A DNA stretch of 64,000 bases from Phycisphaerales bacterium. GTDB lineage: Bacteria; Planctomycetota; Phycisphaerae; Phycisphaerales; SM1A02. A model generated the notes under the pieces. It was not told the origin of the DNA and made no database searches. It saw nothing but the letters and a program-made list of their open reading frames with translations. Shown here one piece after another: positions 34,033 through 51,195 of the stretch (the stretch's first letter is position 1; every line of letters begins with the position of its first letter). The translations under genes were made by a program, and so were the position numbers. The stretch covers positions 1 through 64,000 of the forward strand of contig JAKVBU010000017.1 in the NCBI GenBank assembly GCA_022446885.1, read 5' to 3'.

Positions 34033-34764
34033 GTGCCACAGTGTCTCAACAATTCCCGCCTCGTGACTGCAGCAGCATCGTGGTGCCTGTGCATGCTTGT
34101 TGGCTGTCATCAGGAAACGCCCCATCGAGCGATGCATGAGGGGCTGGTCTTTCATGATGAAGACGGTGACGGCCAGCGGACCGGGCGTGAGAAGGGGCTG
34201 GCTCGCGTGCCCGTTTCCAATGGCCTCGATGTTGTACTCACAGATGTACGGGGCCGGTACCTGATCCCAGATCGGGGCCCTCGGGCTGCATTCGTCATCG
34301 CGCCTCGAGGATGGCGGCAGGCACCCTGCGATCAGGCTGAAGATTTTGCCCTGAAACGATGGCCTATCGACTCGCCCCCGAGCGTGCATATCGGCGCGAC
34401 GGTCGCCGGAGCCCCCGCAGCCCATGCCACGGTTGGGTTCGATGACGCAATGGCACCACGGCCCGGCGAGGCCCCAGGGGGCACGCTGCCCACAGCGTTC
34501 AATGTGGGCGACCTGCACGTGATTGTGGTCAACGACACATTGCCCATCAAAGACACCTGCACGTTCATCGAGGCGGACCTGCATCATGCAGGCGCCGCCC
34601 GCCCGGTGCTGCTTGTGACATCGAGTGAACAAGAGCCCCTGCGATCGCTACTGGAGAACCGCCCCTTCACGATAGCCGTCGACACACTCGGGGGGCCGTC
34701 ACTGGCGGCAGTGTTGGGTCATGGTGACCAGATTGAGTTGATCGCAGAGCCGTACGCACCATGA
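34033..34764 (+). CDS. Lipoprotein with metallophosphoesterase-N-type domain but no enzyme domain
   Basis: A 243-residue lipoprotein (Cys25 in LVGC). Residues 37-85 resemble the N-terminal domain placed ahead of exported calcineurin-like phosphoesterases: GLVFHDEDGDGQRTGREKGL, ARVPVSNGLDVVLTDVRGRY. In those proteins this is followed by the phosphoesterase domain. Here the remainder has only fragments such as GDLHVIVVNDTLPIKD and FIEADLHHAG, and the usual metal motifs are missing, so it looks like a reduced derivative. The GTG at 34033 is used. The stop overlaps the ATG of the SpoIIE-phosphatase gene (ATGA), placing it at the head of the ebo operon. Confidence 0.7.
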   Translation: MPQCLNNSRLVTAAASWCLCMLVGCHQETPHRAMHEGLVFHDEDGDGQRTGREKGLARVPVSNGLDVVLTDVRGRYLIPDRGPRAAFVIAPRGWRQAPCDQAEDFALKRWPIDSPPSVHIGATVAGAPAAHATVGFDDAMAPRPGEAPGGTLPTAFNVGDLHVIVVNDTLPIKDTCTFIEADLHHAGAARPVLLVTSSEQEPLRSLLENRPFTIAVDTLGGPSLAAVLGHGDQIELIAEPYAP

Positions 34765-36623
34765 GTATCCGAGCCAAGTTTGCCCTGATCATGGCGCTGC
34801 CGCTGGTGCTGGTGTACGTCGCCTTGAATGTGATGCAGTTCATGGAACTGGGCCGGACCACGCTGAATGAAGAGCGTGGGCACGCCAGCACCATGGTGCA
34901 GATGCAGTCTGAGGAGGTCAGTGCCTATGCCCGACTCGTTCACCTGCGCGCCAGCGGTGTGCTGGCGACGGTCGAGGCAGTTGATGCAATCCTGCCCCAC
35001 CGTCTGAAGGTGTTCCTCAGCGCTGCTGGTGATCCTCCTTGGGTTGCGGGCATCGCCCTGATCGACGCCCGCGGAAAGCCGCCGCACGAGGAGGTTCTGA
35101 CAGCGCCTACGCCACAAGTCGATCTCAAGCCCTGCCTGGAAGACGATGCCGTGGGGCGACGTATGCGTCGGACCATGGAGGAGGCCCTCAAGACGGGGCT
35201 CAGCGGATGGAAGTCTGCCGAGCCCAACGCAACTCGAGCCACTCCGATTTTTGTTCGAGTGAATGCTGCGAGAACGATCGCAGTCGCCATCGCGCTCGAC
35301 GCTGCCGTCCTGACTGAGCATGTCGTCACGACCGACGATCGGGCCGATCCTTGGCTTGCTGTGGATTCCAATGGCACCGTGATTCTCGGCAATCCCCCAT
35401 CGGTGATCGGTAAACACGTGAGCCAGGTCAACCCCGTGCTGCCCGCGGATGAAACCGCCCGCATCCGCGAGCAGATGATCGCCAAGAAGAACGGCTCACT
35501 TGAGATTGAAGATCCGCGGTACTGGCTGGGGTGGAGTGCCGTCAACAGCACGCCGTGGCGAGTCCTTCTGCCCATCGACATGCGAGCGATCATGGAGCCC
35601 GTCTGGGCGGCCGTCTGGCGCGACGCCATCATCGCCATGGTCGGGCTCGGCGTGAACTTGGCGATCGTCGCCCTCCTTGCAGGCTTCTTCACACGGCCCA
35701 TTCGCCGTCTATCAGAGGCCTTCAAGGAAGTTCGAGCCGGTGCATTCGATGTCAGAGTGCCTGTGAAGTCAAAGGATGAGATGGGGCAACTGGGGTCGGG
35801 CTTCAATGCCATGACTGTGCAACTGGGCGATCTCGTCCGGTCCCATGCCAAAGCGGAGGCCGCCAAGGCTGTACTTGAGCGAGAGAAGAGCATCGCCAGC
35901 GAGATGCAGGAGTCGTTGCTCCCAAGCCCCGATGCACTGCCAGACTCACCCACCGGCCGCGTGCAGGCGCTCATGCGTCCAGCACTCGCGGTAGGTGGCG
36001 ACTTCTACGACGCCTGGATGAAAGGTGACTCCATCTGGTTCACGGTGGCTGATGTCTCCGGCAAGGGTGTTGCAGCAGGCCTGTTCATGGCAGTTGCCAC
36101 CACCATCCTCAGAGGTGTGCGGCGACATGTTGATGACCCGGCTGAAGCCCTGACCTGGCTCAATGATCGGCTGCTGGAAGGCGAAGAGGAGCGTCCCGTG
36201 TTCCTGACCATGTTCCTGGGGCGTCTGGACCCAGATGGAACGATCGCCTACGCATCAGCCGGGCACCTGCCCGCAATTCGGTTTGGTAACGGCCAAAAGG
36301 CTCACCCACTCGCTGATGCAACGGGCCCGCCACTTGCCATGGCACGTAACGTCGAGTGGACGACAGGCACGCTACAACTGAAAGCCGGTCAGCATCTGCT
36401 CATTTACTCAGACGGGGCAGTCGAGGCACGTCGCAGTGATGGGTCGATGGTTGACATTGACGGGCTGGTGCAGCTGGTTGAGGAGATTGGCGAGCGATCC
36501 GACGAGGAGCGGGTTGAGCGGCTGATTGAGTCGCTCCAGGCGATCGAGACGCACGGCCAATCGGATGACATCACCGTCATGAGTGTGACGCGGACAGCAC
36601 GCCACGACGGGGCTACCATCTAG
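34761..36623 (+). CDS. Membrane HAMP-SpoIIE (RsbU-type) protein phosphatase
   Basis: A 620-residue sensor phosphatase. An N-terminal helix (FALIMALPLVLVYVALNVM) and a second helix near residue 295 (MVGLGVNLAIVALLAGFF) flank a periplasmic Cache-like sensor. A HAMP linker follows (RPIRRLSEAFKEVRAGAFDV), then a coiled-coil and a PP2C/SpoIIE phosphatase domain with all metal-binding acidic motifs: GGDFYD, DVSGKGVAAG, YSDGAVEA and SDDITVM. Such phosphatases dephosphorylate STAS anti-sigma antagonists and so switch on a sigma factor. The start overlaps the upstream lipoprotein and the stop is 5 bases from the ebo cluster, suggesting it controls or is coexpressed with those genes. Confidence 0.9.
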   Translation: MSIRAKFALIMALPLVLVYVALNVMQFMELGRTTLNEERGHASTMVQMQSEEVSAYARLVHLRASGVLATVEAVDAILPHRLKVFLSAAGDPPWVAGIALIDARGKPPHEEVLTAPTPQVDLKPCLEDDAVGRRMRRTMEEALKTGLSGWKSAEPNATRATPIFVRVNAARTIAVAIALDAAVLTEHVVTTDDRADPWLAVDSNGTVILGNPPSVIGKHVSQVNPVLPADETARIREQMIAKKNGSLEIEDPRYWLGWSAVNSTPWRVLLPIDMRAIMEPVWAAVWRDAIIAMVGLGVNLAIVALLAGFFTRPIRRLSEAFKEVRAGAFDVRVPVKSKDEMGQLGSGFNAMTVQLGDLVRSHAKAEAAKAVLEREKSIASEMQESLLPSPDALPDSPTGRVQALMRPALAVGGDFYDAWMKGDSIWFTVADVSGKGVAAGLFMAVATTILRGVRRHVDDPAEALTWLNDRLLEGEEERPVFLTMFLGRLDPDGTIAYASAGHLPAIRFGNGQKAHPLADATGPPLAMARNVEWTTGTLQLKAGQHLLIYSDGAVEARRSDGSMVDIDGLVQLVEEIGERSDEERVERLIESLQAIETHGQSDDITVMSVTRTARHDGATI

Positions 36624-36628
36624 GGTTC

Positions 36629-37795
36629 GTGACCAGTCAGCACACACTCGATGGCGAATTCACCGTGGCGTACCGGCACCGAGTCCGGTTCGAGCGGGAT
36701 GCCCTGACGTCGGGCACCGCTCTAGCCGAGTGCCTTGCAACCCCCGACGCCGAACCGGCTCGAACAATTGCAGTACTTGACGCAGGCCTGGTGGATGCTG
36801 CAGGGAACCTGCCGGCCCTTGTGAAGGGCTGGTTCGAGAAGAACGCTAGGGTCGCGACGCTCTCTGCCGACCCCATGGTGCTGCCAGGCTCAGAGGCCGC
36901 CAAAGATGGATTGGCGCCGGTGGTTGAGCCGTTGCTTGCGTCCATCGCCCGCGGTGCCCTCTGCCGCCGTTCGAATGTGCTGGCGATCGGAGGCGGAGCG
37001 TTCCTGGACGCTGCCTCGCTGGCCGCTTCGCTCGCCCACCGCGGTCTGCGCTGCGTGCGCATGCCGACGACCACATTGGCACAGGGCGATGCGGGCATTG
37101 GCGTGAAGAACGGCGTCAATCTGCCCGGCCTGCCCGGACCCAAAAACCTCATGGGCACCTTCGACGTGCCCTCGGGCGTTGTGAATGATCCGACCTTGCT
37201 GGCAACCCTCGACGATGTGCACTGGCGCAGTGGGCTTGCAGAGTCCATCAAAGTGGCACTGGTCAAGGATGTCGGCCTGCTTGGTTTGGTCGAGTCATCA
37301 ACTGATGCACTGCTCGCCCGAGATCTTGACGCCATGGAAGCGGTGCTCATCAGGACCGCCGAACTCCATGTTCGACACATCACTGAAGGCGGTGATCCGT
37401 TCGAAGCCCAGTTGGCGCGACCGTTGGACTTCGGCCACTGGATCGCCCACGAATTGGAAGTGCAATCTCACTGGTTGGTGCCGCACGGAGAAGCGGTCGC
37501 TCTGGGCATGATGGTTGACCTCCATCTTGGGGAGTCGATGGGAATCACCGCTGAGGGAACAGCCGATCGAGTCGATCGCCTGCTGCGACAGCTCGGCTTT
37601 CTCTCATGGCGGCTGGATTCCCTCGAGCCGTCTGCCCTGATGTCCGGGCTTGAGCACTTCCGCCAGCATCTTGGCGGTCAATTGACGATCTGCATGATCG
37701 AGACGCCCGGGCGGGCCGTGGACATCCATGCCGTCGATCTCGATGCCGCCAGAGCAGCGGTTGAGTGCGTGTGTGGCAACCTTGTCGGCCGCTAG
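36629..37795 (+). CDS. eboD: EboD, 3-dehydroquinate-synthase-like sugar phosphate cyclase
   Basis: A 388-residue sugar-phosphate cyclase of the dehydroquinate synthase fold. The NAD site appears as AIGGGAFLDAASLAASLAHR, followed by MPTTTLAQGDAGIGVKNGVN and LPGPKNLMGTFDVPSGVVND. The GVKNGVN and KNLMGTF segments match EboD and related 2-epi-5-epi-valiolone-type cyclases better than housekeeping AroB. Metal ligands are expected at E in LAESIKVAL, H in DFGHWIAHE and H in VPHGEAVALGM, all present. Its likely substrate is a heptulose phosphate, but EboD activity is not established. It heads the ebo cluster, 5 bases after the SpoIIE phosphatase gene, with a GTG start. Confidence 0.88.
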   Translation: MTSQHTLDGEFTVAYRHRVRFERDALTSGTALAECLATPDAEPARTIAVLDAGLVDAAGNLPALVKGWFEKNARVATLSADPMVLPGSEAAKDGLAPVVEPLLASIARGALCRRSNVLAIGGGAFLDAASLAASLAHRGLRCVRMPTTTLAQGDAGIGVKNGVNLPGLPGPKNLMGTFDVPSGVVNDPTLLATLDDVHWRSGLAESIKVALVKDVGLLGLVESSTDALLARDLDAMEAVLIRTAELHVRHITEGGDPFEAQLARPLDFGHWIAHELEVQSHWLVPHGEAVALGMMVDLHLGESMGITAEGTADRVDRLLRQLGFLSWRLDSLEPSALMSGLEHFRQHLGGQLTICMIETPGRAVDIHAVDLDAARAAVECVCGNLVGR

Positions 37796-37804
37796 GATGC
37801 GGGC

Positions 37805-38101
37805 ATGTCCGATGCGCGATGTCCGTTGAACGCCGCCGAAATCGTCGATGCCTACTTTCTTGAGCACCGGGCGAAGGTGCTCGATATCGCGGCCTTTCTG
37901 GATCGAATTGACCGGGCTGCCGACGCTCCCGCCGCGATGGACTACCGCGTTGCAGCCCTGATCGAGTGCATCGCCTTGCTGCTCGATGGAGAAGGTGATC
38001 GGGCTCGTCGCATTCAGGAGCGTCTCAGCGACCGAACGAGCGAACCCGTGGACCGTGCCCCGATGCAGGGTGCGATGGGTGCCCCGGAGGCTGACGGGTG
38101 A
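37805..38101 (+). CDS. Small helical protein inside the ebo cluster
   Basis: A 98-residue soluble protein, predicted helical: NAAEIVDAYFLEHRAKVLDI, AAFLDRIDRAADAP, YRVAALIECIALLLDGEGDR. I cannot match it to EboA, which is usually above 200 residues, so no symbol is given. It sits 9 bases after eboD and its stop overlaps the GTG of eboB, so it is part of the same transcript. It occupies the place where eboA is often found. A small adaptor or chaperone for the pathway is possible. Confidence 0.7.
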   Translation: MSDARCPLNAAEIVDAYFLEHRAKVLDIAAFLDRIDRAADAPAAMDYRVAALIECIALLLDGEGDRARRIQERLSDRTSEPVDRAPMQGAMGAPEADG

Positions 38102-38901
38102 GCTACATCGACCCGCACATCCACATGGTCTCTCGTACCACCGACGACTATCGCCGCATGGCGCAGGCTGGATGCGTCGCAATCACAGAGCCCGCCTTCT
38201 GGGCCGGGTTCGACCGATGCAGCGTGGAGGGATTCAGGGACTACTTCCGTCAACTTACGCAGGTCGAGCCAGCGCGTTCCGCTCGTTACGGCATCGCCCA
38301 CCACACATGGCTCTGCATCAATCCCAAAGAGGCGGAAGATGCCGGGTTTGCCCGTGAAGTCATGTCGATCATTCCGGAGTTCCTCGATGCACCGAATGTG
38401 CTCGGGATCGGCGAGATTGGGCTGAACAAGAATTCCCGCAATGAACTGCAGGTGCTGGAAGCTCATCTGGCGCTCGCTGCAGCGCACGATCTGCTGGTGC
38501 TTGTGCACACACCGCATCTGGAGGACAAGCTCAAGGGCACCATGCTCATCATGGACGCCGTTGCCAATGCCGGCCTCGATCCTGACCGAGTATTGATTGA
38601 CCACGTTGAGGAGCACACGGTTGGAGCTGTGCTCGACCGGGGCTTCTGGGCTGGCATGACGCTGTATCCAGACACCAAGTGCACGCCACAGCGAGCCGTA
38701 GACATTCTCGAGCGATGGGGCATGAACCGCATCTGGATGAACAGCGCCGGCGACTGGGGAGACTCGGATCCTCTGGCCGTACCCAAGGCTCGCATGGAAA
38801 TGCGAAGGCGTCGGCACTCCGCCGAGTCCATCAGGCGAATCACGTTCGACAACCCCGTGGCATTTCTGTCTCGAAGCGGCAACTTCCGGATCGATGCCTG
38901 A
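38098..38901 (+). CDS. eboB: EboB, TatD-like metal-dependent hydrolase
   Basis: A 267-residue TatD/amidohydrolase-superfamily protein. The N-terminal metal motif is IDPHIHMVSRT, an acidic site follows at LGIGEIGLNKNS, histidines lie in LVLVHTPHLEDK and IDHVEEHT, and the C-terminal Asp is in MNSAGDWGDSDP. The order is that of TatD-family TIM barrels, and this variant is typical of the EboB branch. Role in ebo-linked metabolism is unknown. GTG start overlaps the upstream stop; the eboE start lies inside its last codons, so expression is tightly coupled. Confidence 0.87.
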   Translation: MSYIDPHIHMVSRTTDDYRRMAQAGCVAITEPAFWAGFDRCSVEGFRDYFRQLTQVEPARSARYGIAHHTWLCINPKEAEDAGFAREVMSIIPEFLDAPNVLGIGEIGLNKNSRNELQVLEAHLALAAAHDLLVLVHTPHLEDKLKGTMLIMDAVANAGLDPDRVLIDHVEEHTVGAVLDRGFWAGMTLYPDTKCTPQRAVDILERWGMNRIWMNSAGDWGDSDPLAVPKARMEMRRRRHSAESIRRITFDNPVAFLSRSGNFRIDA

Positions 38902-40006
38902 GGGACCACCGGTCGCCTGGTGCACGAATGTGCACGACGCCAAGGACTGCGCCGACCTGCAGCGGGCGATCGAGCAGGTGTGCGAGGCGGTGCACAAGGA
39001 GGCGCCCGATGTGCGACCGCGGGTGGGTCTCTGGCTCCCGCCGGAAATGGCAGATGGGCGCAATGTGCAGGCGTTGCGTCAAACGCTCAGTGCAAGGGGG
39101 CTCCAGTGCATCGGCCTGAATGCGTTTCCAGCCATGCAGTTTCATGCAGATGTCGTCAAGACCGCGGTCTATCGACCGGCATGGGATGACCCCCGACGGC
39201 TGCAGTACACCAGGCGGTGCGCCAAGGCGCTCACGGAACTGCTCGAGCCGGGCGACTCCGCCGGCTTGACCACGGTGCCCATCGGCTGGCCGGGCCACGG
39301 CGTGGATGTAGAGGCGGCCGTCGGGCAGATTCGACACATGTGCGACGATCTGGAACGAGTGCATCAGGCCATCGACATCGATCTGCATCTGGCCATCGAA
39401 CCTGAACCGGGATGTCTGCTCGACACAACCGAGTCTTTGGCCCGGTTCGTGGAACAGCACCAATTGCACGACTTGACTGCTTCAGGTCGGCTGCGGGCCT
39501 GCCTCGACGTGTGCCACTTGGCCGTGATGCACGAGTCTGCCGACGATGCACTGGATGCGCTCGCGCGAGCGCATCTGGCTGTCGGCCGTGTGCAGGTGTC
39601 GTCTGCAGTCGAAGCGGACATGACCGGCTCACAGGCGACTCGAGATGCCCTCGCGGATCTGGATGAACCACGCTGGATGCACCAGACAACATGCCTGAGT
39701 GAGGCAGGCCGGGAAGATTGGCCCGATCTGCCCGATGCACTTGCAAAGGGATCGCCCGGGCTGTGGCGGACGCACCTGCATGTGCCGGTTCACCTGCAGT
39801 CTTTCGGGCTGCTGGGAACGACCCAAGGGGCGATCCTCGACATGTTGCGGGCGCTGCACGCCCGAGACCTGCACCCGCCTCTGGAGGTGGAGACCTACGC
39901 CTGGAGTGTGCTGCCCGAAGCTGTGCGGCTGCCCGATCTGTCGTCGGAGATCGCCCGCGAACTCCTCTGGGTACGAGACTGCGCTCGCGCCGAAGGGTGG
40001 ACGTGA
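38894..40006 (+). CDS. eboE: EboE, xylose-isomerase-like TIM barrel protein
   Basis: A 370-residue TIM-barrel protein of the xylose isomerase-like superfamily matching EboE: WCTNVHDAKDCADLQRAI, RVGLWLPPEMA, CIGLNAFPAMQFHADVVK, DLHLAIEPEPGCLLDTTES, RACLDVCHLAVMHE and RTHLHVPVHLQSFGLLGTTQ. Metal-ligand positions (E in IEPEPG, D and H in LDVCHLA, H in HLHVPVH) are conserved, so it is likely an active metal-dependent isomerase or epimerase. EboE has been named a metabolite-traffic protein from its gene context. It overlaps eboB by 8 bases and its TGA shares one base with the eboC ATG. Confidence 0.87.
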   Translation: MPEGPPVAWCTNVHDAKDCADLQRAIEQVCEAVHKEAPDVRPRVGLWLPPEMADGRNVQALRQTLSARGLQCIGLNAFPAMQFHADVVKTAVYRPAWDDPRRLQYTRRCAKALTELLEPGDSAGLTTVPIGWPGHGVDVEAAVGQIRHMCDDLERVHQAIDIDLHLAIEPEPGCLLDTTESLARFVEQHQLHDLTASGRLRACLDVCHLAVMHESADDALDALARAHLAVGRVQVSSAVEADMTGSQATRDALADLDEPRWMHQTTCLSEAGREDWPDLPDALAKGSPGLWRTHLHVPVHLQSFGLLGTTQGAILDMLRALHARDLHPPLEVETYAWSVLPEAVRLPDLSSEIARELLWVRDCARAEGWT

Positions 40007-40920
40007 TGCGACCCTGGTGGATGCTGCTGCGAGCCAGCAACCTGCCCACAGTTTGGACGAACGTCCTGCTTGGCGTTGCTCTTTCGGCAGGCCCGGAGGG
40101 GTCATGGTTCGATCCATCCAAGGGCGGGGTCGGCCTGTTGATGCTCATTCCACTTGCGCTCATGATGCTGGCTGGCTCGGCCGCCTATCTGGGCGGCATG
40201 GTGATGAACGACATCACTGATCTCGATCATGACCGCTCCACCAGCGCCGATCGCCCGCTGGTTCGTGGGCAGATTTCTTTGGCCGCAGCCAACACGGCGA
40301 TGATCGTGTTGTTCATGGCGTCGATCTGGGCCCAGGGGGCGGCCATCATGATCTGCTCGAACACCTGGCAGCCGGCGCTGCTGTGGTCGGCCCTGCTGGG
40401 AGCGATCTGGCTCTACAACCTGATCCACCGCAGCGGCCCCCTCAGCGCTGGAGCCCTGATGGCCTGCTGCCGAGGCCTGCTGGTGCTGTCTGCAGCCGCT
40501 GCAATTGGGCCTCTGGGCCCGGCCGCGTTCATTGGAGCCGCGGCAGTCGCCTGCTGGACCGGTGGCATCACGCTGTTGGCCCGCGGCGAGCGTGGCGGCG
40601 AACCACGCGCAGCGGGGTGGTTGGCCCTCCTTGTGTTGTCATGCCTCGGGCCCGTCGGGGTCTGGTTCACCACACCGTGGGCGCAGTCTTCAGGCCCGCT
40701 GCTGGGCGGGCTGTTGGTGCTGGGTCTGGCTTGGATCCCGGCGGTATGGCGATTCAATCGAGCCCGGCGGCAGGGGCAGGCCATTGTGTGGGCGATCATG
40801 GGGCTGTGCGTGCTCGATGCGGCCTGCCTTTTGGCCGCGAGCCAGCTGGTCGCGGCATCTGCGGCCATGATTGCCATGGCCCTGTGCATGGGATTGCAGC
40901 GGCTTCAAGCCGGAACCTGA
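40006..40920 (+). CDS. eboC: EboC, UbiA-like prenyltransferase
   Basis: A 304-residue polytopic membrane protein of the UbiA superfamily. The first prenyl-diphosphate-binding motif is NDITDLDHDRSTSADRPLV (NDxxDxxxD). The second Asp-rich motif of canonical UbiA enzymes is weak, as is usual for EboC. About nine hydrophobic segments follow. Predicted activity is transfer of a prenyl group to an aromatic or other acceptor in the inner membrane, which could anchor or mature an exported metabolite. The ATG at 40006 abuts the eboE stop; a GTG one codon upstream is an alternative. Confidence 0.88.
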   Translation: MRPWWMLLRASNLPTVWTNVLLGVALSAGPEGSWFDPSKGGVGLLMLIPLALMMLAGSAAYLGGMVMNDITDLDHDRSTSADRPLVRGQISLAAANTAMIVLFMASIWAQGAAIMICSNTWQPALLWSALLGAIWLYNLIHRSGPLSAGALMACCRGLLVLSAAAAIGPLGPAAFIGAAAVACWTGGITLLARGERGGEPRAAGWLALLVLSCLGPVGVWFTTPWAQSSGPLLGGLLVLGLAWIPAVWRFNRARRQGQAIVWAIMGLCVLDAACLLAASQLVAASAAMIAMALCMGLQRLQAGT

Positions 40921-40932
40921 TAGAACAGCACC

Positions 40933-42327
40933 GTGGCCCACCGCACTGCCGTCATCAATCTGGTCGCTCTGGGCCCTGCCCAACTGGCGTGCATGCCCCG
41001 GCTGCGTGGTCTCATGCAGCAGGGCACGAGCATGCGGCTGGCGCCACCACTCCCAGCCGTGACATGCACCAGCCAGGCGACAATGCTGACAGGCGCACAG
41101 GCGACGGTGCACGGCATCGTGGGCAACGGCTGGCATGATCGATGTACAGCTGAAACGCGGTTCTGGCAACAAAGCAGCCGCCTGGTACAGGCACCGCGCG
41201 TCTGGGACGAACTGGCTCGGAATGATCCTGCGATCTCCTGTGCCAACTGCTTCTGGTGGCACGCGATGTATGCATCCACCGATGTGACCGTGACGCCACG
41301 TCCGATGTACCGGGCTGATGGTCGGAAGATCCCCGACATCTGGACGCAACCGACCGAACTGCGGCACGCTGTGCAGTCCAAGCTGGGGCAGTTTCCGCTG
41401 TTCAAATTCTGGGGCCCTGGGGCAGACATCACCAGCAGCCGTTGGATCGCCCAAGCGACAGCGCACGTAGAGCAGAGATTCGATCCGACCCTGCTGCTGT
41501 GCTATCTCCCACATCTGGACTACGGGTTGCAAAAGTACGGGCCCGATGATCCACGCATGGTGCATGAGTGCGAGTTGATCGACGAGGTCGCAGCAGATCT
41601 CATTGGCAAGATGATGGACCGCGGCCGTCGGGTGCTCGTCGTCAACGAGTACGGGATCATGCCGGTGACCGGGTCGGTTGCACCCAATCTCGCTCTGCGG
41701 GAAGCAGGTGCTCTGTCACTGAGAGTGGAACAAGGCCGCGAGTACCTCGATGCCGGTGCAAGCCGGGCCTTTGTCGTTCCGGACCACCAGATCGCACACG
41801 TGTACCTGCGCAATCAAGCGGACGCGGGCCGATTCACCGATCGGCTCATGGCCCTCGATGGCGTCGATCGGGTGCTTGATGATCGTGGCCGGCGAGTGGC
41901 CGGCCTCGATCACGATCGCGCCGGTGATTTGATTCTGGTCGCCCGGCAGGATCGGTGGTTCAGACACGACTGGTGGACTGATCCCGCCGCCGCTCCAGAC
42001 TGGCAACGCACCGTTGATATTCATCGAAAGCCTGGATACGACCCACGTGAACTCTTCCTTGATCCGTCGATCACGTTCCCAAAGTTGAAGATCGGTGGAA
42101 GACTGCTGGCGAAGAAGCTGGGGTTACGCACATTGATGGATGTGATTCCTCTGGATGACTCGCTGGTCAAAGGCAGCCATGGCCGCCCCGACCCCGAATA
42201 CGACCCAATCTTGTGGAGCAGCACCGAATTGCCCAATGCCACACCTCGGGTACAGGCAACCGCAGTGCGATCACTCATCGAGCAACTTGTGCTGGAAGAT
42301 GTACCACTCAGCGCCAAAGAAGCATGA
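40933..42327 (+). CDS. eboF: EboF, nucleotide pyrophosphatase/alkaline-phosphatase-family protein
   Basis: A 464-residue alkaline-phosphatase-superfamily protein close to type I phosphodiesterase/nucleotide pyrophosphatases. The nucleophile Thr and its surroundings are APPLPAVTCTSQATMLTGAQ followed by HGIVGNGWHD, and further metal-site elements include LCYLPHLDYGLQKYGP, VVNEYGIMPV and GSHGRPDPEYDPI. The NPP-type metal-binding His and Asp pattern is retained, so it may hydrolyse a phosphodiester or diphosphate, for example releasing a prenyl or nucleotidyl group from the pathway intermediate (inference). No signal peptide is seen. GTG start. Its last 20 bases overlap the 3' end of the convergent beta-helix gene. 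Confidence 0.87.
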   Translation: MAHRTAVINLVALGPAQLACMPRLRGLMQQGTSMRLAPPLPAVTCTSQATMLTGAQATVHGIVGNGWHDRCTAETRFWQQSSRLVQAPRVWDELARNDPAISCANCFWWHAMYASTDVTVTPRPMYRADGRKIPDIWTQPTELRHAVQSKLGQFPLFKFWGPGADITSSRWIAQATAHVEQRFDPTLLLCYLPHLDYGLQKYGPDDPRMVHECELIDEVAADLIGKMMDRGRRVLVVNEYGIMPVTGSVAPNLALREAGALSLRVEQGREYLDAGASRAFVVPDHQIAHVYLRNQADAGRFTDRLMALDGVDRVLDDRGRRVAGLDHDRAGDLILVARQDRWFRHDWWTDPAAAPDWQRTVDIHRKPGYDPRELFLDPSITFPKLKIGGRLLAKKLGLRTLMDVIPLDDSLVKGSHGRPDPEYDPILWSSTELPNATPRVQATAVRSLIEQLVLEDVPLSAKEA

Positions 42328-49197: not shown

Positions 49198-51195
49198 ATG
49201 ACGGCCAGCCCCATCACGGCGGACACGACAAGCACAACCCTCGATCTGGATGCCGCTCTGGCAGCCATCGAAACGACGCATGGCAGCGATGGGCTCGATC
49301 GCGCCCGAGCAGGGGTTGCTCGTGTGGCGCAGATGTGGACCGTGGATGACGGTGACCAAGCGGCCTTTGCCGAGTTCTGCAGCGACTACTTCATCGCCGA
49401 TGAAGCCGGTCTGGCCACGCTCGTGGATCGACTCGAAGTCGCTCTGGAGCAGGTTGGTGGGCACTTGTATGAGATGCGCCGCACACTACGTCGCTGGAGT
49501 GATCTTCGAGGCGAACCCTTCGGCAAGGTCGATGATCTGCTGGCAACCTTCGATCCGGCACCCGATCTATCCGACCAGTACTGGCGACAGAAGATCGCAT
49601 TTGTCGCCCGTCTGAACCTCGACCGCCCGGACCTGGAGACCATGATTGCCGAGGGTGAGGGGTGGACCAGCGACGACTGGGCCGCAGTGCGAGTGAGCCG
49701 AGCATTCGGGCCTCGCGTGCCCGCCGAAGTCTCGGATCTCGTCCGCAACCTGAGCTTCAAGTCAGGCAAGTTCGTCAGCGAATTCCACGTACCGGTGGGC
49801 AATCTCGTGGACGCCACCGGCGAGCGTTGGTTCGAAGCCGACCGGGCACTCATCGCGCACTGGCTGATTCGGGAGGAGATTCGGGCGGCATACGCGGTCG
49901 ATGGCGGCGTCACTCGACAACGAGCCCTCATGTGGGTCATGCGCCGACACATCGACGGCACTATTCCCCGGTCAATCATGGATCGAACCGCCGAGGGCGA
50001 CTGGGATGCGCAGGCCAACACCATTGCGGGTGAGGCGTGCACAGATGTGATCGGGCCGGTTCGCTATGAACACTGGTGTGACAACATCACCGCAGCCAGA
50101 GCGCTTGATGAACATCACGATGAACACCCCACGGCGATGCGGCGGAAGTTCGACCGCGAGCGTGAGATCCCCGAAGAAGAGGTGGTGCGGCAACTCGAAT
50201 TGCTGCTTGAAGCCCCCGCTCGCGCTGGAATCGCCCAGCTGATGCGCCAGCGATTGGGGCGAGACCTCGAGCCGCAAGACATCTACTTCGACGAACTGGC
50301 CGAGCCCACCGACGCCTCGATGTTGGACGCCGCAGTGAAGGAACGCTTCGGCGATCACCGAGGCCTTGAACTGGCACTGCCGCAGGTGCTGGAGCAACTT
50401 GGCTGGTCTCGAGGTGACGCTGAGTTCCTCGGACGACGCGTACGCGTGGAGATCGCCCGTGGTGCAGGGCATGCGATGCGACCGGCGCTCCCCGAGTACG
50501 GCGCATGGCTTCGCACCAACAGCCTCGATCATGAGCTTGGCTGGGACGGGTTCGACACGGCCATGCACGAACTGGGCCACAACCTCGAGCAGCTCTGTTC
50601 GACGCACTTTGTTCCCAGACCGGCCCTGCGAGGCGTACCCAATACAGCCTGCACCGAGGCATTCGCCTTCCTGTATCAGGGTCTGGCAGGCACCGTGCTG
50701 CAACTGCCCGAAGGCGACGAGGAAGTCGCGGCCGACATGGCCTGCTGCGAGCGACTGCTCGAAGCCGCTCAGATCGCCGGGCCCGCCCTTCTGGAGATCC
50801 ACGTCTGGCGGTGGATCTACGACAACCCGGATGCCGATGCCGATGCCATTCGGGACACCGTTCTTCGTGTAGCCGACGAACTCTGGACTCGGTACTACGC
50901 CGAGCATTTTGGCCCCGACCCATACGCCATCCTCGGCGCGTATCAACACATGGTTGGCTACCCGCTCTATCTGGCAGACTACGCACTGGGCCACATCATC
51001 AGCCACCAAATCATTCAGCACATGGTCGGCAAGGACCTCGCCTCCGAGACACGGCGTATCTGCAGCATCGGCTCTCTCACGCCCGACGCATGGATGCGCA
51101 TTGCCGTCGGACGCGGCATCGATGCCGGGGTGCTGGCCTCAGACGCTGCCGCTGCTGTAGACCGACTGACTCGCACGGGCATGGGCGGCGCATGA
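49198..51195 (+). CDS. M3-like zinc metallopeptidase
   Basis: A 665-residue cytoplasmic zincin with no signal peptide. The zinc site TAMHELGHNLEQ (HExxH, near residue 456) is followed by the third-ligand Glu in NTACTEAFAFLYQG about 28 residues later, the spacing of gluzincins. The mostly helical layout, with a long N-terminal helical half and a C-terminal region ending LGHIISHQIIQHMVGK, resembles family M3/oligoendopeptidase F proteins, though the match is distant. Role would be hydrolysis of oligopeptides. AAGGAG precedes the ATG. The stop overlaps the serA start (ATGA). Confidence 0.82.
   Translation: MTASPITADTTSTTLDLDAALAAIETTHGSDGLDRARAGVARVAQMWTVDDGDQAAFAEFCSDYFIADEAGLATLVDRLEVALEQVGGHLYEMRRTLRRWSDLRGEPFGKVDDLLATFDPAPDLSDQYWRQKIAFVARLNLDRPDLETMIAEGEGWTSDDWAAVRVSRAFGPRVPAEVSDLVRNLSFKSGKFVSEFHVPVGNLVDATGERWFEADRALIAHWLIREEIRAAYAVDGGVTRQRALMWVMRRHIDGTIPRSIMDRTAEGDWDAQANTIAGEACTDVIGPVRYEHWCDNITAARALDEHHDEHPTAMRRKFDREREIPEEEVVRQLELLLEAPARAGIAQLMRQRLGRDLEPQDIYFDELAEPTDASMLDAAVKERFGDHRGLELALPQVLEQLGWSRGDAEFLGRRVRVEIARGAGHAMRPALPEYGAWLRTNSLDHELGWDGFDTAMHELGHNLEQLCSTHFVPRPALRGVPNTACTEAFAFLYQGLAGTVLQLPEGDEEVAADMACCERLLEAAQIAGPALLEIHVWRWIYDNPDADADAIRDTVLRVADELWTRYYAEHFGPDPYAILGAYQHMVGYPLYLADYALGHIISHQIIQHMVGKDLASETRRICSIGSLTPDAWMRIAVGRGIDAGVLASDAAAAVDRLTRTGMGGA

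Follow-up and report, generated by a model that had tools for sequence, protein, structure and literature searches.

The question of what the ebo operon makes dates from 2016, and the operon occurs in many bacterial phyla, in some algal plastids and, as seen here, in partial form in archaea. Yurchenko et al. proposed an isoprenoid-cyclitol as its product (PMC5133447), and Klicki et al. proposed a glycolipid carrier for export (PMC6282210). In section 3.2 of the former paper, no clustering of ebo genes was reported for the three planctomycetes considered there (PMC5133447). Here we describe a compact ebo operon, eboD-eboG-eboB-eboE-eboC-eboF, at positions 36629–42327 of a 64,000-nucleotide stretch of DNA (the window), which lies within one contig (C18) of a metagenome-assembled Phycisphaerales genome (2.87 Mb, 108 contigs). 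Two exchanges, of EboD for inositol-3-phosphate synthase (MIPS) and of an EboG-EboB for an EboA-EboB cassette, are what is new here relative to the searchable literature. We propose, as a reading that the evidence on balance slightly favors, that the complete EboG-type operon encodes a membrane-lipid pathway, in which a cyclitol is formed from a sugar phosphate, soluble metalloenzymes then modify it, and a prenyl chain is attached. A prenylated cyclitol fits because the operon combines a membrane prenyltransferase and a sugar-isomerase-like barrel with a ring-making step that has two unrelated enzymes to serve it.

The first-pass annotation of the window had recognized an ebo cluster in a planctomycete, and this holds: six open reading frames (ORFs) lie head to tail on the forward strand, with gaps from eboD to eboF of 9, −4, −8, −1 and 12 nucleotides (nt).

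36629–37795, +: eboD, sugar-phosphate cyclase, 388 amino acids (aa); GTG start; NF004852 above cut-off
37805–38101, +: eboG (formerly 'x'), 98 aa; blastp matches to Deinococcus and Gemmatirosa ORFs preceding EboB
38098–38901, +: eboB, TatD-like metal-dependent hydrolase of the EboG-type branch, 267 aa; PF01026, ligands, EboB trees
38894–40006, +: eboE, xylose-isomerase/ketose-epimerase-like TIM barrel, 370 aa; NF035939 above cut-off
40006–40920, +: eboC, UbiA-superfamily prenyltransferase, 304 aa; PF01040, first Asp-rich motif
40933–42327, +: eboF, alkaline-phosphatase-superfamily protein with altered metal site, 464 aa; PF01663

Exchange of the ring source

By profile scores, the EboD of the window is distinct from the dehydroquinate synthase AroB. 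It scores 387.9 bits on NF004852 (cut-off 333), a model that carries NCBI's own name '3-dehydroquinate synthase', and 175.5 bits on NCBIfam aroB, under the cut-off of 305; another locus of the genome holds a further, AroB-like gene, which reaches 154.7 bits on NF004852. A plain AroB was rejected on these two grounds, the low aroB score and the separate AroB-like gene. Across 61 genomes, comprising the window genome and 60 relatives, NF004852 scores are two-peaked, 46 genomes having a match that reaches the cut-off and every other match lying at 220.7 bits or less. In a motif alignment, EboD has LDFGH at the site of VDFGH in ValA (4p53) and LNLGH in the aligned dehydroquinate synthases. The histidine four residues after LDFGH is kept in EboD and is a proline in ValA, and FR(E/Q)HLGG (FRQHLGG in the window) occupies the site of DKK in the aligned dehydroquinate synthases.

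In the ebo-like operons of Streptomyces and Halobaculum, MIPS stands in EboD's place. Among 343 planctomycete genomes, 218 with a strong EboE match, MIPS (PF07994) is found in 178, namely 135 of the 218 EboE-strong genomes and 43 of the other 125. EboD was scored in 24 + 80 EboE-strong genomes (n = 104): 25 have EboD without MIPS, 72 MIPS without EboD, two both and five neither (P 6e-17), so that exactly one enzyme is present in 97. With ten relatives added, all EboD-positive and MIPS-negative, the counts become 35, 72, 2 and 5, and the test by genus gives P 3e-17. The window genome follows the pattern, with EboD present and no MIPS match. Plasmids show the same alternation. In a search with an E limit of 1e-40, 51 plasmid records with EboB carry MIPS nearby in 32 cases (1.0–4.4 kb), EboD in 16 (1.1–5.5 kb), both in none and neither in three. 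The MIPS records span Actinomycetota, haloarchaea and Gemmatimonadota; the number of independent lineages is far below 32, because 25 of these records are Streptomyces.

In a MIPS tree of 22 rows, the operon MIPS of Streptomyces and Halobaculum fall into one 17-row group (support 100/100), together with MIPS from 10 of 11 sampled EboD-less genomes, and the MIPS of G162, the one genome sampled that has both enzymes, lies outside it. Planctomycetes (rows L272–L291) contain at least two distinct MIPS groups, both of which occur in genome G156. Separately, 32 of the 343 genomes have weak EboE matches only, possibly a diverged EboE branch, and the four of these placed on the MIPS tree all have the ebo-type enzyme.

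We conclude that EboD and MIPS replace each other in ebo-positive genomes, and the pattern of exchange suggests that both feed one pathway. Several observations weigh against this interpretation. Both enzymes occur in two genomes, and neither occurs in five. The MIPS of G208 was left out of the tree that took in G162, and the single MIPS of the EboD-less genome G204 falls outside the 17-row group. MIPS also occurs in the 43 genomes without strong EboE, and five of the six sampled from these lie inside the group. No MIPS was found beside ebo genes in the planctomycetes compared; in G117, G165 and G294 it lies about 79–119 kb from EboE on the same contig. The product of EboD is a dephosphorylated C7 ring and that of MIPS a phosphorylated C6 ring; therefore the products of the two versions of the pathway must differ or converge. 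The exchange could also reflect another need for inositol. A related objection holds that the pattern is a coincidence of lineage, with MIPS serving unrelated inositol lipids or solutes and EboD lost for other reasons, an idea to which the 43 MIPS-positive genomes and the shared ancestry of the genomes lend some weight. We consider it very unlikely, since families f32 and f73 swap the enzymes between genera while no genus is mixed (family f50 holds both double-positive genomes), and since plasmids of three groups, although mostly from Streptomyces, carry MIPS no more than 4.5 kb from EboB.

No report of the exchange was found in the ebo literature under open licence in PMC, and the word 'inositol' is absent from the main text of the three main ebo papers. 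Because EboD and MIPS are exchanged, the product question narrows towards a cyclitol-derived molecule. As a pattern seen in sequence, the exchange adds a new line of support for the cyclitol part of the published proposal, and turns a vague guess at the product into a testable idea.

EboG and the EboB cassette

What is the small gene that precedes eboB? Unnamed so far and listed as 'x', it proved to be a real gene encoding 98 aa, and its best interpretation is the EboG described by Yurchenko et al. (2016). It is matched in 47 of the 61 genomes, the same 47 in which EboB is found; a spurious ORF was rejected on this count. A degenerate EboA was likewise rejected, the hhalign probability being 0.2% (alignments of 36 and 4 sequences). 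The EboA profile has matches in none of the 61 genomes, and the profile works, because it matches in 86 of the 343 planctomycetes. In blastp against a small database, the EboG of the window matches Deinococcus and Gemmatirosa ORFs at E values of 6e-12, 8e-13 and 7e-18; tblastn over all plasmids gives the same three proteins only 0.3, 0.5 and 2e-5. On two Deinococcus plasmids the matching hypothetical protein sits between EboD and EboB, and in Gemmatirosa it precedes EboB. The name EboG was coined for taxa that include Deinococcus (PMC5133447), and from taxon and position we infer that the Deinococcus plasmid proteins are this EboG.

EboA and EboG exclude each other. At an E value of 0.001, with up to 14 candidates scored per genome in the EboG search and up to 11 in the EboA search, 51 of the 343 planctomycete genomes have EboG and 86 have EboA, 84 of the latter above the profile cut-off. 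The two overlap in one weakly supported genome, and in none once three weak matches are removed (50 and 84 genomes). The exclusion has P values of 2e-7 over all 343 genomes and 5.6e-11 over the 218 EboE-strong ones, values that ignore relatedness, a gap that the trees close in part. The type of partner is written into EboB: in a tree of 62 EboB rows, one change separates EboA from EboG partners (100/99), and it does so in all bootstrap trees. In matched trees of 37 taxa, the partner changes once on EboB (100/100) and seven times on EboE. Within family f32, the EboE proteins of three EboA-type and 17 EboG-type genomes form one group (100/100), while the sampled EboB proteins of the two types fall on opposite sides of the EboB tree; a two-gene cassette has therefore been exchanged inside a resident pathway. 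Two types of EboB, one going with EboA and one with EboG, had been described before; what is new is that EboE behaves differently and that the exchange took place within a family.

EboA-EboB and EboG-EboB thus behave as interchangeable two-gene cassettes, and therefore EboG is probably the partner of EboB, presumably through physical contact. More generally, the cassettes suggest that EboA and EboG alike have EboB for a partner. Against so general a scheme, no match to EboA or EboG turned up in 94 of the 218 genomes with strong EboE. When partner and ring source are considered together (n = 114), EboA occurs with MIPS in 34 genomes and with EboD in seven, and EboG with EboD in 21 and with MIPS in nine; the other 43 lack a recognized partner or ring source.

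A genome scan confirmed 484 EboG loci, and in at least 33 of the best 80, nearly all titled planctomycetes, the order D-G-B-E-C-F is kept on one strand, in some with a few kb of extra DNA between B and E; the figure is a lower bound because contig ends cut some loci. The same six genes are adjacent and in the same order on the two Deinococcus plasmids. Chance assembly had been judged improbable, a judgement that this recurrence bears out, and the comparison of gene order across planctomycete genomes proposed at the same time revealed conserved co-occurrence. In 79 of the best 80 loci eboB follows eboG immediately (in L139 another ORF intervenes). In other relatives the ebo genes are scattered, with G and B mostly kept together; G017 is an exception, with eboG on contig C8 and eboB on C5. 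Among loci from the wider phylum (L166–L205), all 20 with EboA have EboB downstream of it (1.1 kb away in L166), as do 16 of the 20 with EboG, with no EboB in L169, L171, L174 and L200. A difficulty for the proposal of a common pathway is that no EboE match was obtained in G040, G044 and G052, genomes with EboD, G, B and F, and only a weak one in G056. A stand-alone EboG-EboB system is weakened as an explanation by the EboD and EboF found elsewhere in these four genomes.

The AlphaFold2 model of EboG has a mean predicted local distance difference test score (pLDDT) of 81.7 and consists of three helices (residues 10–37, 47–60 and 66–74) followed by a tail. Searching Pfam, NCBIfam and PDB sequences with an EboG profile returned nothing better than E 0.01, and a Foldseek search of the PDB with the model gave no match at E 0.001, which is no proof of a new fold. 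The last 18 residues have pLDDT values near 53, yet P81, A90 and G92 are near-invariant among 69 sequences. Such conservation in a part modeled with low confidence hints at a partner. Weighing against this, six short EboG proteins end before the conserved tail; it is consequently not required everywhere, and its role as a general docking part is weakened.

A proposed prenyl-cyclitol pathway and its alternatives

In the proposed pathway, EboD would first cyclize a sugar phosphate, by the published guess sedoheptulose 7-phosphate, to a cyclitol, with MIPS taking its place in many relatives. EboE may then isomerize or dehydrate the ring. Its assignment as xylose-isomerase-like was upheld by NCBIfam TIM_EboE (NF035939; 329.1 bits, cut-off 250), and its AlphaFold2 model (pLDDT 94.6) resembles ketose 3-epimerases and xylose isomerase (best Z 24.7, root-mean-square deviation 2.7, 259 aligned residues, 15% identity); a predicted fold of this kind does not by itself establish a reaction.

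EboB, working with EboG, would carry out a hydrolytic step. The description of EboB as TatD-like and other than an ordinary TatD is borne out by its residues and scores: PF01026 gives 32.8 bits, barely above the cut-off of 27, the ordinary TatD model TIGR00010 gives 25.2 bits against a cut-off of 206, the metal ligands HxH/E/H/H/D are retained, and the protein groups with the EboB of Deinococcus and Gemmatirosa. At E 0.01, AF_1765 is the sole relative with a solved structure (3guw; E 1.8e-20). At odds with a strictly conserved metal site, EboB of locus L031, from the same genus, has HxN in place of HxH.

EboC would prenylate the product in the membrane, a step in favor of which the farnesylation of quinolines by EboC relatives in vitro speaks (PMC9235831). 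Its UbiA-like character is confirmed by PF01040 (38.7 bits, cut-off 34.2, scanned from position 40000) and by the first Asp-rich motif, NDxxDxxxD (N68–D76); a second Asp-rich motif was not seen, and the start has been corrected to 40006. The best NCBIfam match is EboC, at 77.7 bits well short of the cut-off of 250, a point against the name, and the Deinococcus EboC is likewise under this cut-off (96.3 bits). The assignment consequently rests on best match, position and residues. Both EboE and EboC of the window are strongly diverged, with 26–69% and 24–45% identity to the homologues collected.

EboF, finally, may act on or bind a phosphate group. It matches PF01663 at 168.9 bits and is 44–53% identical to EboF of bacterial plasmid ebo clusters (L071–L074, L076, L078, L079) and 35% to an archaeal one (L077). 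Aligned to phosphonoacetate hydrolase (3szy) and a bacterial nucleotide pyrophosphatase/phosphodiesterase (2gsn), it keeps Thr44; DxxxH has become D196xxxQ200 and D-H has become E239-Y240. All 26 rows compared have the E-Y pair, and 25 of them, all but the archaeal EboF, have the Q. The replaced residues are presumably the metal ligands of the two templates. While the earlier family placement stands, the label 'pyrophosphatase' appears unsafe because canonical metal ligands are replaced, and ordinary phosphodiesterase activity seems doubtful.

The putative prenyl-cyclitol that would result, with its presumed head group, could be a general envelope lipid or a carrier, which would be consistent with scytonemin-monomer export in Nostoc. 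We speculate, with a little less than even confidence, that ebo across bacteria, archaea and plastids is one modular pathway to prenyl-cyclitols, a class of membrane lipid not described before, with an exchangeable ring source (the C7-cyclase EboD or ebo-type MIPS) and an exchangeable EboB cassette (EboA-EboB or EboG-EboB), making a common envelope lipid in planctomycetes and not a rare secondary metabolite. If so, a lipid so far unrecognized would be common in planctomycetes, a group noted for unusual envelopes.

Could ebo instead be an export accessory, its proteins assembled in the membrane to carry a dedicated small molecule, made elsewhere, into the periplasm? Every deletion made in the Nostoc cluster (A, B, C, E and F) leaves the scytonemin monomer stuck in the cytoplasm (PMC6282210), and some EboA-type clusters have candidates for cargo genes next to them: in Streptomyces a ScyD/ScyE family protein, and in three others a ferritin-like protein plus a large hypothetical protein. 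Against such a role, no scaffold-making genes were recognized around the window and 41 loci that hold five or more ebo genes (families named by eye, with no family search), though EboE is strong in 218 of 343 genomes, and a nearby scaffold cluster was rejected, the recurrent flanking families resembling, again by eye, housekeeping genes or spurious frames. This agrees with the first-pass annotation, which had seen no obvious biosynthetic core. A cyclase exchangeable with MIPS also implies chemistry beyond transport alone. We consider export alone, as proposed for Nostoc, unlikely; it is compatible with a lipid pathway in which the lipid itself serves as carrier.

Less likely again seems a redox lipid of prenylated aromatic or quinone-like type. 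Here EboE and EboB would dehydrate a keto-cyclitol to an aromatic ring that EboC farnesylates, as in the BE-40644 precedent discussed in section 3.7 of PMC5133447. Relatives of EboC farnesylate quinolines in vitro, with a preference for these aromatic substrates (PMC9235831), which by analogy may leave room for an aromatic or enone acceptor, and TIM-barrel neighbors in Halobaculum score on inosose dehydratase and sugar epimerase models, below cut-offs. On the other side, no aromatizing or oxidizing enzyme is recognizable in the operon, and the assays accepted no phenols or catechols (PMC9235831). For the cyclitol acceptor of the main proposal, too, the assays are a point against: the substrates accepted were quinolines, and no cyclitol was found among those tested (PMC9235831).

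Flanking genes and comparison with known systems

The ebo transcript may start upstream of eboD, because two genes precede it closely:

34033–34764, +: protein with a MetallophosN-like region, possible operon member; PF16371 30.0 bits, under the cut-off of 35.6
34761–36623, +: HAMP plus SpoIIE-type phosphatase, possible operon member; PF07228 143.1 bits

The phosphatase gene stops 5 nt before eboD and overlaps the MetallophosN-like gene by 4 nt; its family lies upstream of ebo genes in seven of the 42 regions compared, the window included. Downstream, a right-handed beta-helix protein (PF13229; 42308–43375, −) is convergent with eboF and overlaps its 3′ end by 20 nt. A YceI-family protein (PF04264; 43512–44135, +), of a family that binds polyisoprenoids, follows 1.2 kb 3′ of eboF and has a downstream homologue in four of 80 loci. 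Farther away, a Chagasin-type peptidase inhibitor (PF09394; 48424–48873, −) lies near an ORF of 665 aa (49198–51195, +) for which Pfam gave no match. Rfam gave no matches at gathering score; a scan for promoters and terminators gave one promoter-like site (shuffles 1.5) and seven terminator-like sites (shuffles 3.7, standard deviation 2.1) and was not used.

The closest described relative is the EboG variant of Deinococcus (Yurchenko et al. 2016), which has the same six genes in the same order and an EboG homologous by blastp to that of the window, whose genome, like its 60 relatives, has no detected EboA. The differences lie in the divergence of EboE and EboC and in the host, a planctomycete, from a phylum whose members sampled in PMC5133447 showed no clustering. 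With the ebo cluster of Nostoc punctiforme, known for scytonemin export, the window shares proteins B, C, E and F of the same families (PMC6282210). Nostoc has EboA where the window has EboG, and, unlike in Nostoc, no scytonemin genes were recognized among the window's neighbors, no search directed at scy genes having been made. The ebo-like operons of Streptomyces and haloarchaea share EboB, EboF, a UbiA enzyme and xylose-isomerase-like barrels with the window; in these, MIPS replaces EboD, and the UbiA enzyme is of the SCO3242 type (Streptomyces) or intermediate (Halobaculum).

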